A stretch of 64,000 nt of DNA from Mongoliitalea daihaiensis (GTDB taxonomy: Bacteria > Bacteroidota > Bacteroidia > Cytophagales > Cyclobacteriaceae). The translations under genes and the position numbers were made by a program. The notes below the pieces were generated by a model. That model worked only from the letters and a program-made list of their open reading frames with translations. It did no database searches and had not been told where the DNA came from. Location of the stretch: positions 685,501-749,500 of the forward strand of contig NZ_CP063779.1 in assembly GCF_021596945.1 (NCBI RefSeq). Direction: 5' to 3'. The stretch's first letter is position 1. Every line of letters starts with the position of its first letter. Positions 7,338-54,938 of the stretch are shown here, one piece after another.

Positions 7338-8534
7338 ATGGAAGGGTTAGTAAATAGATATAGAAATTTACTCTTGTCTGTAAAGACAGATTTTAAAAGA
7401 GGCCACTACCAAACCATCAATTGGAATGGACGAGCCATATGCATTTTGGGAGCAAGAGGAACTGGTAAAACAACCTTAATGCTTCAATACCTCAAGGAAA
7501 ATTTACCCTTGGATAAATCGCTATATCTAAGTTTAGATGATCTTTACTTCAAGGAAAATAACCTTGTTGATCTAGCAGAAAGATTTTACCAATTAGGCGG
7601 AAGAAATTTGCTATTGGATGAAGTACATAAATATAATGATTGGCAAAGTGCAGTAAAAAATATTTATGATTTCTATCCAGATCTCAAACTAATCATATCT
7701 GGGTCTTCTATTCTCGAACTCCAAAAATCACAAGCAGACTTGAGTAGAAGACTTGTTTACTATAATTTGCCAGAATTATCATTCAGAGAATACTTAAGCC
7801 TCAAATTCAGGATTAACCTGGTTCAATATGACTTAAATGAAGTTTTGACTACTCATCAAGCACTTGTCGATCCTATCCTTACATCTATTCCTGATATTAT
7901 GCTTCATTTTGAGCATTATAAAAAAATTGGTGCTTACCCATTCTTTTTGGAGGATGAAAGAGATTATGTTTCGAAAATCAATCAATTAATCAACGTCATT
8001 ATTGACTATGACCTACCCGAAGGTAAAGACATATCAAGCAATACACAGTCGAAATTGAAAAAATTACTTTATGTTATTTCAACATCCGTGCCTTTCAGTC
8101 CGAATATTAGTAAGCTAGCAGAAAAAACTGAAACAACCCGACCTAGGCTACTTGAAATGCTACATTTGTTGGAAGTTTCAAAACTTATACTAAGCCTAAG
8201 TTCTTCCTCTAAAGGTATAAGCTTCATGAATAAACCAGATAAAATTTATTTAGCAAATTCAAACTTGATATATGCACTTGCATTAGAAAATCAAAATCAA
8301 GGAAATGTTAGAGAAACATTTTTCATAAACCAACTCAAAAACTCTGGAAATACGGTTACCACTGCGAGAAATGGAGACTTCTTAGTAAACGATACTCATG
8401 AATTTGAAATTGGTGGGAAAAACAAAAGTTTCGACCAAATAGCTAACATCCCCAATTCCTTTATTGCAGCAGATGAAATACTTTATGGATTCGGAAACAA
8501 AATACCTTTGTATCTATTTGGTTTCCTCTATTAA
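7338..8534 (+). CDS. AAA-type ATPase with C-terminal DUF4143/nuclease-like region
   Basis: 398 residues. Walker A is GARGTGKT at 38-45 and Walker B is LLLDEVH at 91-97, followed by a sensor-like IISGSS. A middle helical part leads to a C-terminal region containing GDFLV and FEIGGK, reminiscent of a PD-(D/E)XK nuclease fold as in DUF4143 ATPases. The cellular role of this family is not established. The frame is open back to GTG 7251, but that part only translates the 33-base repeats, so ATG 7338 is preferred. A strong terminator follows. A second ATPase of the same broad type is at 53402-54595. Confidence 0.85.
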   Translation: MEGLVNRYRNLLLSVKTDFKRGHYQTINWNGRAICILGARGTGKTTLMLQYLKENLPLDKSLYLSLDDLYFKENNLVDLAERFYQLGGRNLLLDEVHKYNDWQSAVKNIYDFYPDLKLIISGSSILELQKSQADLSRRLVYYNLPELSFREYLSLKFRINLVQYDLNEVLTTHQALVDPILTSIPDIMLHFEHYKKIGAYPFFLEDERDYVSKINQLINVIIDYDLPEGKDISSNTQSKLKKLLYVISTSVPFSPNISKLAEKTETTRPRLLEMLHLLEVSKLILSLSSSSKGISFMNKPDKIYLANSNLIYALALENQNQGNVRETFFINQLKNSGNTVTTARNGDFLVNDTHEFEIGGKNKSFDQIANIPNSFIAADEILYGFGNKIPLYLFGFLY

Positions 8535-53166: not shown

Positions 53167-53331
53167 GCACAAAGAAAACATTTAAAAACGAATAATATCC
53201 CAAAGTAAGGAGGTAGGATTTGCAAAGCTCCTAATCAAAAGAATAAAAGTACCCTTTACCTCCTTCAAAAATTGGCAAAAAATAGTTTCATATTAATCTC
53301 ATTTTCAATATTTTACATTCATTTTTAAAAA

Positions 53332-53379
53332 TTTACTCAATAAATTGAGTAAATTTACTCAATAAAACACGTAAATTTG
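53332..53379 (+). promoter_or_regulatory. Tandem 22-base palindromes overlapping an ATPase promoter
   Basis: The unit has left arm TTTACTCAAT, two spacer bases, and right arm ATTGAGTAAA, perfect at 53332-53353. A second, decayed copy follows directly at 53354-53375 (left arm kept, right arm ends in CGTAAA). The second copy runs into TAAATTTG (53372-53379), a match to the -7 box. Similar tandem copies lie downstream of the gene at 54852-54895. Confidence 0.65.
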
Positions 53380-53401
53380 TAAATAGCTATTATTCAACGA
53401 A

Positions 53402-54595
53402 ATGAGCTTCTATCGTTCGGACAAAAAAGTAATTCATCATAGACTAGCTAATGAATCACGGAGATTCATCCAAGTCATCTATGGCCCTCGTCAAGTGGGT
53501 AAGACTACCCTTGTCAGGCAGGTCATGAAGGAGCTCAACTATCCTTCAAAGTTTGTTGCGGCCGATGCCGTACCTGCGGGGGACCAAGCATGGATCAATC
53601 AACAATGGGAAGCAGCAAGGCTTCAGCAATCCCAACAAACAGACAAGCCACTTCTACTGGTCATTGACGAAGTTCAGAAAATCCATAACTGGAGTGAACA
53701 GATCAAAGCTGAATGGGATAAAGACAGCTTGGAAGAACGGGATATCAGAGTTGTCCTTTTGGGCTCATCCCGTCTCATGCTCCAACAAGGCTTGACAGAG
53801 TCATTAGCTGGAAGATTTGAAGCCACCTATTTGGGGCATTGGACCTTAACAGAGATGAAGACGGCATTTGGACTAAGTGCGGAAGAATACGTATGGTTTG
53901 GAGGCTACCCCGGTGCCATTACACTACGAGAAGATGAGGATCGTTGGAAAAGCTATCTTCGGGACTCCTTATTAGAAACAAGTATTTCTAAAGATATCCT
54001 AATGCTGACAAGAGTGGACAAACCAGCTTTGATGAAAAGACTCTTTGAGTTAGGCTCCGTCTATTCAGGGCAAATCTTGAGCTTTACCAAAATCATGGGG
54101 CAACTCACCGAAGCAGGAAATACGACCACACTTGCCAATTACCTAGAATTACTAAATGATGCAGGCCTGTTGGGAGGCATTGAAAAATACAGCCCAAACA
54201 TGGTCCGAAAGCGTGCTTCCAGCCCAAAATTCCAAGTTCATAACACCGCTATCATGTCAGGTATTTCCAATGAAAGCTACGAAAGCATCATCGAAGATCA
54301 CAAAGTCTGGGGAAGATGGGTAGAATCTGCTGTAGGCTCTCATCTGATGAATCAGACCTTTCGAAATAAAAAGTTATCCCTATACTATTGGAAAGAAGGG
54401 AATGATGAAGTGGACTTTGTCGTTGAATATCAAAAAAAAGTCATCGGTTTAGAAGTGAAATCTGGACTCACTGGCAAACTCACTGGTATGAATGCCTTCA
54501 AAGAAAAGTTTGCCCCTGATAAGCTTTTTGTCATTGGAAACGATGGAATTCCTTGGCAAGAGTTTTTAGCGCTGGATATGACTGATTTATTCTAA
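53402..54595 (+). CDS. AAA-type ATPase with DUF4143 and PD-(D/E)XK-like C-terminus
   Basis: 397 residues. Walker A GPRQVGKT at 28-35, Walker B LLLVIDE at 84-90, and sensor VVLLGSSRLML. The C-terminal part has NDEVDFVVEYQKKVIGLEVKSG, with the Asp...Glu-x-Lys spacing of the PD-(D/E)XK nuclease fold. The family is widespread, but its role is unsettled. The stop codon lies at the left edge of the 200-base inverted-repeat element. It is flanked on both sides by tandem palindromes, which suggests a cassette with its own regulation. Compare the ATPase at 7338-8534. Confidence 0.9.
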   Translation: MSFYRSDKKVIHHRLANESRRFIQVIYGPRQVGKTTLVRQVMKELNYPSKFVAADAVPAGDQAWINQQWEAARLQQSQQTDKPLLLVIDEVQKIHNWSEQIKAEWDKDSLEERDIRVVLLGSSRLMLQQGLTESLAGRFEATYLGHWTLTEMKTAFGLSAEEYVWFGGYPGAITLREDEDRWKSYLRDSLLETSISKDILMLTRVDKPALMKRLFELGSVYSGQILSFTKIMGQLTEAGNTTTLANYLELLNDAGLLGGIEKYSPNMVRKRASSPKFQVHNTAIMSGISNESYESIIEDHKVWGRWVESAVGSHLMNQTFRNKKLSLYYWKEGNDEVDFVVEYQKKVIGLEVKSGLTGKLTGMNAFKEKFAPDKLFVIGNDGIPWQEFLALDMTDLF

Positions 54596-54793
54596 AAAGA
54601 GGCTGTCTCATAAGTTAATGCTTTAAAATAATGCCAAAATTTTATTTGGTTTGTAATCAGTGAAACTTTGTGCCTTAGAGCCTTCGTGGCATTTCTAGCC
54701 ACAAAGCCACTAAGTCACAAAGGGATTGATTCTTAAACAGAATTTTGTTTGGTTAATAAATCTGAAGAGCAATTTATGAGACAGCCTCTTTTT
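54594..54793. mobile_element. 200-base MITE-like element with 20-base terminal inverted repeats
   Basis: AAAAAGAGGCTGTCTCATAA (54594-54613) and its exact reverse complement (54774-54793) bound a 200-base non-coding segment. Its left edge overlaps the ATPase stop codon (TAA at 54593-54595). The end sequence, of the GAGGCTGTCTCA type, resembles insertion sequence termini in Bacteroidota. The inner part contains runs such as CTTCGTGGC and GCCACAAAG. No target duplication is evident. The whole could also act as a transcription terminator. Confidence 0.7.
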
Positions 54794-54851
54794 GCTTAAA
54801 AATATTTTTATAACACACTAATTTACAATTACTTAAACATGTTTTAAAAAT

Positions 54852-54895
54852 TTTACTCAATGTACTGAGTAATTTTACTCAATACATCGAGTAAA
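54852..54895. repeat. Downstream tandem copies of the ATPase palindrome
   Basis: Two direct 22-base units at 54852-54873 and 54874-54895, each starting TTTACTCAAT and with a GAGTAA-type right arm (ACTGAGTAAT and ATCGAGTAAA). They match the pair at 53332-53375 in unit length and order. No plus-strand gene follows, since the next gene is marC on the minus strand. Confidence 0.7.
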
Positions 54896-54938
54896 TAAAA
54901 TTATTCCCCCTTCCAAAGGGACAGTTCCCCCCAACAAT

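Follow-up and report, generated by a model that had tools for sequence, protein, structure and literature searches.

Why should a gene for a single ATPase carry tandem palindromes on both of its sides? The question is raised by a stretch of 64,000 nucleotides from Mongoliitalea daihaiensis (contig NZ_CP063779.1; C1:685501-749500 of the 4,816,617-base genome), called the window below. A first-pass annotation of its letters had noted tandem palindromes of about 22 bases before and behind a gene for an ATPase of the AAA_14-DUF4143 type, and all four copies are indeed present, two at 53332-53375 and two at 54852-54895, each 22 bp long. The reading that we favour, with little better than even confidence, is that these palindromes are the ATPase's own sites, which would serve as an operator upstream of the gene and, behind it, as one end of a movable cassette. 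We observed in the sequences a private and conserved motif, its bracketing of the gene, filled and empty sites, and a scar with one end.

A private motif that follows the ATPase

The palindrome pairs (Table 1) are the tails of a direct repeat of about 100 bp (53278-53376 and 54798-54896, 74% identical). When the whole genome was searched with TTTACTCAATNNANNGAGTAA, the matches at up to two mismatches were the four window copies, most of them matched in both orientations, plus a single stray locus, C1:4488755; at three mismatches a scattered background of matches appeared. Ordinary repeats found everywhere, the finding that the annotation had named as fatal to its proposal, are thus not what the host genome holds.

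We then analysed 80 homologues kept of 312 found, 30 of them close (73-95% identity) and 50 distant (58-62%), counting the motif ATTGAGTAAATTTACTCAAT as present if at least 14 of its 20 positions matched within 110 bp before the matched start. It preceded all 30 close and 48 of the 50 distant genes (78/80, presence across orthologues not being independent evidence for each genome). Two control windows further upstream gave 0/30 and 0/30 for the close and 0/49 and 0/48 for the distant genes, and a window within the gene gave 0/30 and 5/50, none of these at 16 positions or more. The two homologues lacking the motif are L106, where the match begins after the first residues, and L132, which reaches 13/20 and comes from a metagenome-assembled genome labelled Clostridia. 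Among the motif-bearing homologues are records titled Chlorobium, Balneola, Sphingobacterium and Bacteroides. Within the line of the window ATPase the motif outlasts 50% protein identity, because a Collinsella (Actinomycetota) homologue at 39% keeps two TACTCAGTATACTGAGT copies at 22-bp spacing, and one from Bacteroides finegoldii at 44% keeps three copies of ATTGAGTAAAATTA, one of them varied. The length of the array varies: L127 has about five half-site copies, at 22-bp spacing, in the final 120 bp before the gene.

We compared the upstream regions of 100 DUF4143 genes in pairs, taking a local score of at least 20 as similar (pairs below 30% identity were sampled one in four). The share of similar pairs rounded to 0.00 below 40% protein identity and was 0.03 at 40-50% (n=292), 0.51 at 50-65% (n=541), 0.97 at 65-80% (n=190) and 1.00 above 80% (n=51); for a control region 310-420 bp upstream it was 0.00 up to 80% identity and 0.18 above. 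Below some 50% protein identity most of the upstream likeness is gone. Using intergenic upstream sequence only, the share for ATPases was 0.63 (1709 pairs) versus 0.15 (73 pairs) for other genes at 50-65% identity, 0.88 versus 0.25 at 65-80% and 0.94 versus 0.53 above 80%, these pairs being non-independent. An earlier promoter control was dropped, as coding sequence upstream of many neighbour genes confounded the sharing; in that control, for pairs of at least 40% identity, other genes shared at 0.28-0.76 (n from 104 to 398) and rnhA at 0.33 of 378.

The second upstream palindrome overlaps the octamer TAAATTTG, as had been annotated, which we take to be a -7-like box from the Bacteroidota promoter consensus. 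The motif has, accepting this promoter, the place and the pattern of an operator: it lies over the likely promoter, is kept in orthologues and differs in paralogues. Since it also shows a spacing of whole helical turns, and follows the protein from phylum to phylum, changing with it, self-binding and self-regulation are the simplest reading, and self-regulation, as proposed earlier, is the natural one for these ATPases. The ATPase would recognise the palindromes itself, probably through its winged-helix domain, and the upstream pair would be an autoregulatory operator over the ATPase's own promoter. The repeats could instead act as RNA, folding in the 5' end of the messenger RNA to control translation or to be cut by the protein's own nuclease, and the inverted repeats that reach the ATG in several paralogues would suit this. 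We give the RNA account very little weight, as the window palindromes lie upstream of, or over, the likely -7 box and would hardly be transcribed from it, and a phasing of 22 or 32 bp favours DNA.

The array recurs behind the gene

What is the downstream pair for? As had been noted, it precedes no gene on its own strand, at least none close by; the nearest gene 3' of it lies on the minus strand. We searched the 200 bp before and the 450 bp after the gene for a shared direct repeat and found one in 29 of the 30 close orthologues (the exception is L066), the right end thus being retained across 13 named genera. These repeats are 36-138 bp long and score 24-68, whereas 30 base shuffles peaked at 13-21. 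A stricter test for the single motif found it in 15, 4, 5 and 1 of the 30 close loci in four downstream windows. Three further lineages are bracketed. In the orthologue group of L005 (period 32, core AAATTAGGCCTAATTT) a downstream copy is present in 8 of 20 loci, two of the 20 having uncertain starts; at L205 an inverted repeat of 41 bp ending at the ATG recurs directly after the stop codon with 40/41 matches; and the Collinsella locus has a bracketing repeat of 46/52. Bracketing is a recurrent variant, not a general rule. Because both ends are present in nearly all close orthologues and bracketing is found in these other lineages too, the right-hand copy is no accident. The upstream-downstream matches of L003, L016, L208, L218, L229 and L251 were not counted, being of other sequences than the motif; those of L003 and L016 are intergenic stretches of 69 and about 80 bp, almost identical on the two sides, that look like generic repeats.

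The annotation had suggested that a second cassette, since lost, may have left the downstream pair as its relic. The two ends are indeed alike in direct orientation, as a lost duplicate would leave them. A functionless leftover is at odds with the retention of the right end in so many loci and genera, where the upstream control windows keep nothing. Nor was a locus with two cassettes seen: with at most six candidates per genome scored, at E <= 1e-50, one match, in some cases partial, is listed for 39 of the 40 positive genomes, and the two matches of the remaining genome, G260, are pieces of one broken gene. We therefore regard a relic as very improbable. Neither a lost neighbour nor control over another gene accounts well for the downstream copy. 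On our preferred reading the downstream pair and its A+T-rich lead-in would form the right-hand counterpart in a small cassette, arranged as left end, gene and right end, with the ends in direct orientation.

Two unrelated bracketed cassettes lie next to an SbcD-like gene at L205 (1-738) and an SbcC-like gene at the Cyclobacteriaceae home site (for example L075), possibly by chance. The SbcC/SbcD nucleases act on DNA hairpins.

Filled sites, empty sites and an apparent excision scar

In the window the cassette sits between rnhA and marC (these names, and SbcC, SbcD, SucA and esterase, were given by eye from translations, without a family search), and the nearest genome, G001, is filled at the same site with an ATPase that is 95% identical. 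We assessed 28 rnhA loci from other genomes, among 30 loci listed for 278 genomes with rnhA. The ATPase and the palindrome core were found in none of the 28; rnhA directly adjoins marC in 24, and the spacers at these 24 junctions hold no array. Since the relatives' rnhA|marC sites hold no palindrome, both ends arrived with the insert. In the window's genus the cassette would, on this evidence, have been inserted between rnhA and marC.

The usual site in Algoriphagus lies between an esterase gene and SbcC. Searching 72 Algoriphagus genomes, 68 of them with the flanking esterase, we obtained 30 listed loci. Eight have the ATPase and two a broken one (L150, L154). Four lack the ATPase and keep one recognisable unit, that is, a palindrome of 15/22 or better (L147, L149, L157, L170). 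Thirteen have neither (L146, L152, L155, L159-L163, L165, L169, L171-L173), L155 retaining, by eye, a possible partial lead-in; L158, L166 and L168 were placed in no class. The single end of L170, which has no gene, appears to be of mixed ancestry. Its left half is closer to the left end in five of seven relatives compared (best L080, 62 versus 21; L088 is a tie), and its right half clearly matches the right end better in four (L076, 37 versus 5; L080, 32 versus 8; L087, 42 versus 7; L088, 33 versus 11), the other three being uninformative. L170 is apparently a hybrid scar, as expected from recombination between the two ends. For L157 the same comparison of halves gave no clear answer, and at L147 and L149 an ordinary deletion seems, by eye, to have spared the right end.

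The cassette is often missing at its usual Algoriphagus site, one genome having apparently lost it through recombination between the ends. At the L205 site, SbcD stands near SucA without the ATPase in four congeners (L303-L306) of 11 family genomes. These empty sites support mobility of the cassette. The annotation's second suggestion for the downstream pair, an insertion boundary, gains from the empty rnhA|marC sites and from the single-end scar. It had also expected an empty site with one palindrome pair; this fits the gene-loss sites L157 and L170, not the relatives' rnhA|marC sites, which hold none. For the orthologue group of the window ATPase, only two distinct insertion sites are safely established. 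A count of relocations from neighbour genes alone was dropped, as L070, L072, L073 and L074 (and partly L067) share, by eye, sequence past the right end.

An ATPase fused to a nuclease-like domain

The window protein (397 residues) matches the Pfam families AAA_14 and DUF4143, and the PADLOC model PDLC04791 for the phage-defence candidate PDC-S01 spans its residues 3-396 (E 4.6e-180). In 61 aligned sequences the invariant residues include G28, G33, K34, D89, E90 and D338, and E336, E351 and K353 are nearly invariant. An AlphaFold2 model from this alignment has a mean predicted local distance difference test (pLDDT) of 89.8 and a predicted template modelling score (pTM) of 0.90. Its module of three helices plus strands at about 208-279 may be read as winged-helix-like. 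The modelled C-terminal order is helix 300-321, strands 325-332, 335-343 and 346-353, helix 361-370 and strand 374-379. The order helix-strand-strand-strand-helix-strand, with a D/E/K motif, marks PD-(D/E)xK nucleases. The model thus suggests an ATPase, a winged helix and a PD-(D/E)xK-like domain; with the full-length PADLOC match, this fusion of an ATPase domain to a PD-(D/E)XK-like domain places the protein in PDC-S01. Between the cassette ends, the open reading frames of at least 80 residues are that of the ATPase, with Pfam matches to ATPase families and DUF4143, and one overlapping frame of 80 residues. Seven phage records contain a match to the window protein, one of them 47% identical over 99% of its length.

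A search of the PDB by sequence gave no match to the window protein. In the structure search, the best VIA matches of the model were the archaeal ATPases 2fna and 2qen (Z 17, 262 residues), after which the listing tails broadly into AAA+ and CED-4/NLR proteins; the matches mainly cover residues 1-325, the query being the whole model. The leading Foldseek rows include ORC and Orc1/Cdc6 chains. Origin boxes lie beside archaeal Orc1/Cdc6 genes, and here, too, repeats adjoin a gene for an AAA+/winged-helix protein, so the arrays might be initiation or loading sites, and the protein might serve a small replicating element as its initiator-type ATPase. Such a role seems scarcely credible to us, given the nuclease-like domain at the C-terminus, the low TM-scores (about 0.3-0.4) of those Foldseek rows, and the archaeal ATPases as best VIA matches.

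Arrays beside other members of the family

The annotation had proposed a search for matching arrays next to other ATPases; in the host genome most of the family members scored have an array of their own. The host genome (4.8 Mb) has 17 DUF4143 matches (loci L001-L017), of which L008, L013 and L014 were left out of the scoring. Ten of the 14 scored genes have an upstream tandem repeat that beats all 100 shuffles, L015 narrowly (14 versus 13); the repeats of L001, L003, L004 and L011 are not above the shuffles. The periods of the ten arrays are 22, 22, 23, 23, 32, 32, 32, 32, 33 and 33, and by eye the arrays are unlike one another in sequence. The other ATPase of the window (open reading frame from 7311, ATG at 7338) is preceded by a different array, of period 33, so both ATPases of the window have, as had been said, dedicated arrays of different sequence. 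L003 and L004 carry a single inverted pair that ends at the ATG.

DUF4143 is present in 20 of 41 genomes of a sample of the phylum (16 matches in G372) and absent from 21. A Walker A pattern together with an ATG allowed us to place 37 genes of other genomes, to which G365 and G372 contributed many. An inverted repeat near the start scored above all 20 shuffles in 24 of the 37, and did not in 13, 20 shuffles per gene being weak for any single gene. Among plasmid loci, a repeat above 30 shuffles was found in 6 of 14 (including L285, whose start is uncertain); the other eight were unflagged. An inverted pair CCTTGCAA ... TGCAAGG, roughly alike in L003, L004, L210, L287, L288 and L289, stands at the ATG or one base before it; in L004 the pair has the variant form CCCTGCAA ... 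TTGCAGGG. Pairs of the CCTTGCAA type precede DUF4143 genes in both Bacteroidota and Alphaproteobacteria.

Operator only, or operator and cassette end?

The protein may bind both arrays and loop the DNA across the gene for autoregulation only, its control being tighter for the loop, all moves and losses being passive (host recombination, gene loss). The operator-like position over the likely promoter and the spacing of the arrays by whole helical turns suit this account, as do the 24 of 30 close loci that remain near SbcC; the scar requires just recombination between direct repeats, and L147 and L149 resemble ordinary deletions. It leaves unexplained why the insert at rnhA|marC consists of both ends and little else, and why distant homologues with the upstream motif almost all lack a copy downstream. 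We hold pure autoregulation to be possible, though a good deal short of probable.

On the reading of the arrays as operator and cassette end, we infer that the ATPase binds the motif, represses its own promoter and drives its own movement. The weakest step is the last: the nuclease and ATPase of the protein, rather than host recombination, would move the cassette.

Several observations weigh against this reading. The scar can also be explained by host recombination between the repeats of about 100 bp, and the left half of L170 is closer to the right end in L087 (20 versus 27). The whole ends of the cassette are in direct, not inverted, orientation, their self-inverted parts being the palindromes within. 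No known transposase or recombinase is recognised among the open reading frames of at least 80 residues between the ends. The rnhA|marC comparison defined no exact junction or target-site duplication, because the site in G001 carries the cassette as well and the remaining genomes have diverged too far. An SbcC-like gene lies at most three open reading frames downstream of the cassette in those 24 close orthologues, and four of the apparently relocated loci have a common right flank, which argues for few moves. The background for bracketing was one of base shuffles only. Distant homologues have the motif in 1/50, 0/48, 0/47 and 1/45 of the same downstream windows. Bracketing was absent from all but one of the 13 scored plasmid loci, from 12 of 14 own-genome genes scored (generic matches of L003 and L016 excluded) and from 36 of 37 genes of the phylum sample (four generic matches excluded). 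Four paralogue pairs at 23-27% identity score 22-24 upstream, so chance likeness of A+T-rich sequence exists. Finally, DNA binding is not a necessary property of the winged helix in ATPases of this kind.

It is doubtful, though worth stating, that PDC-S01-type ATPase-nucleases include one-gene mobile elements that move without a known transposase, the ATPase and winged helix bridging two copies of their own site, one on either flank of the gene, and the nuclease releasing the unit. If so, the label 'defence' may partly reflect mobility, and each member would have its own site specificity.

Known systems

In Tn7-type machinery TnsA is a PD-(D/E)xK protein and TnsC an AAA+ protein. The window cassette resembles it in having an AAA+ ATPase, a PD-(D/E)xK-like nuclease domain and multiple repeats at its ends, which in Tn7 are protein-binding; it differs in that one fused protein is present, no DDE transposase is seen and the ends are in direct orientation.

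According to the available part of one source, PDC-S01 consists of an ATPase and a PD-(D/E)XK domain, the make-up of the window protein, and ranks fourth in frequency among the defence systems of prokaryotes, experimental validation being pending for most such candidates (PMC12988326). In the accessible part of a rumen survey it is the most frequent individual locus (PMC13356809). The available parts of these two sources do not mention a private array or bracketing such as those of the window gene (PMC12988326, PMC13356809). In the open-licence literature, as far as its text was accessible, we found no description of such arrays beside DUF4143 or PDC-S01 genes, and no test of PDC-S01 for anti-phage activity.

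Defence islands controlled by RptR have, in the accessible text, several palindromic repeats over the -10 region of a defence-locus promoter, the 6-bp palindromes being bound by a separate repressor of 9 kDa (PMC12255303). The window cassette has no separate regulator gene, and it is the ATPase that its motif follows. Another member of the Bacteroidota, Porphyromonas gingivalis, has short 23-bp tandem repeats in BrickBuilt, described in the available part of the source as a miniature inverted-repeat transposable element (MITE) with 19 dispersed copies and small inverted ends (PMC4596501). Identity with BrickBuilt was rejected, as that element is dispersed and the window array belongs to one gene at one locus.

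Family members come with a deeply conserved DNA site of their own, which is a directly testable candidate ligand for the protein. With this site, regulation can be told apart from defence, and the family can be sorted simply by specificity. Should the bracketed form move itself, it would amount to a mobile element without a transposase, derived from a defence-type ATPase-nuclease.

Other features of the locus

Table 1. Features in and around the ATPase cassette (window coordinates)
Feature	Position	Strand	Basis
Left-end lead-in, A+T-rich, common to right end	53278..53331	+	Direct repeat D1; aligned ends of 30 loci
Left-end palindrome 1, TTTACTCAATAAATTGAGTAAA	53332..53353	+	Sequence; motif kept in 78/80 homologues
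Left-end palindrome 2, TTTACTCAATAAAACACGTAAA, imperfect right arm, 22 bp past palindrome 1	53354..53375	+	Sequence
Presumed -7-like box, TAAATTTG, overlapping left palindrome 2	53372..53379	+	Sequence; presumed consensus
AAA_14-DUF4143 protein, 397 residues, PDC-S01 family	53402..54595	+	Pfam, PADLOC, alignment, model
MITE-like insertion, 23-bp inverted ends, not a cassette part	54594..54793	none	Between stop codon and right end
Right-end lead-in, A+T-rich, oriented as left end	54798..54851	+	Direct repeat; aligned ends
Right-end palindrome 1, TTTACTCAATGTACTGAGTAAT	54852..54873	+	Sequence, genome search
Right-end palindrome 2, TTTACTCAATACATCGAGTAAA	54874..54895	+	Sequence, genome search

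The MITE-like element (200 bp, inverted ends GAGGCTGTCTCATAA) follows directly after the stop codon of the ATPase. It has eight near-full-length copies in the genome, at 78-100%, and is missing at the corresponding place in G001. Many of the orthologues L020-L044 have, by eye, a terminator-like hairpin AAAGACAGTC..GGCTGTCTTTTT after the ATPase stop, where in the window the MITE-like element stands instead.
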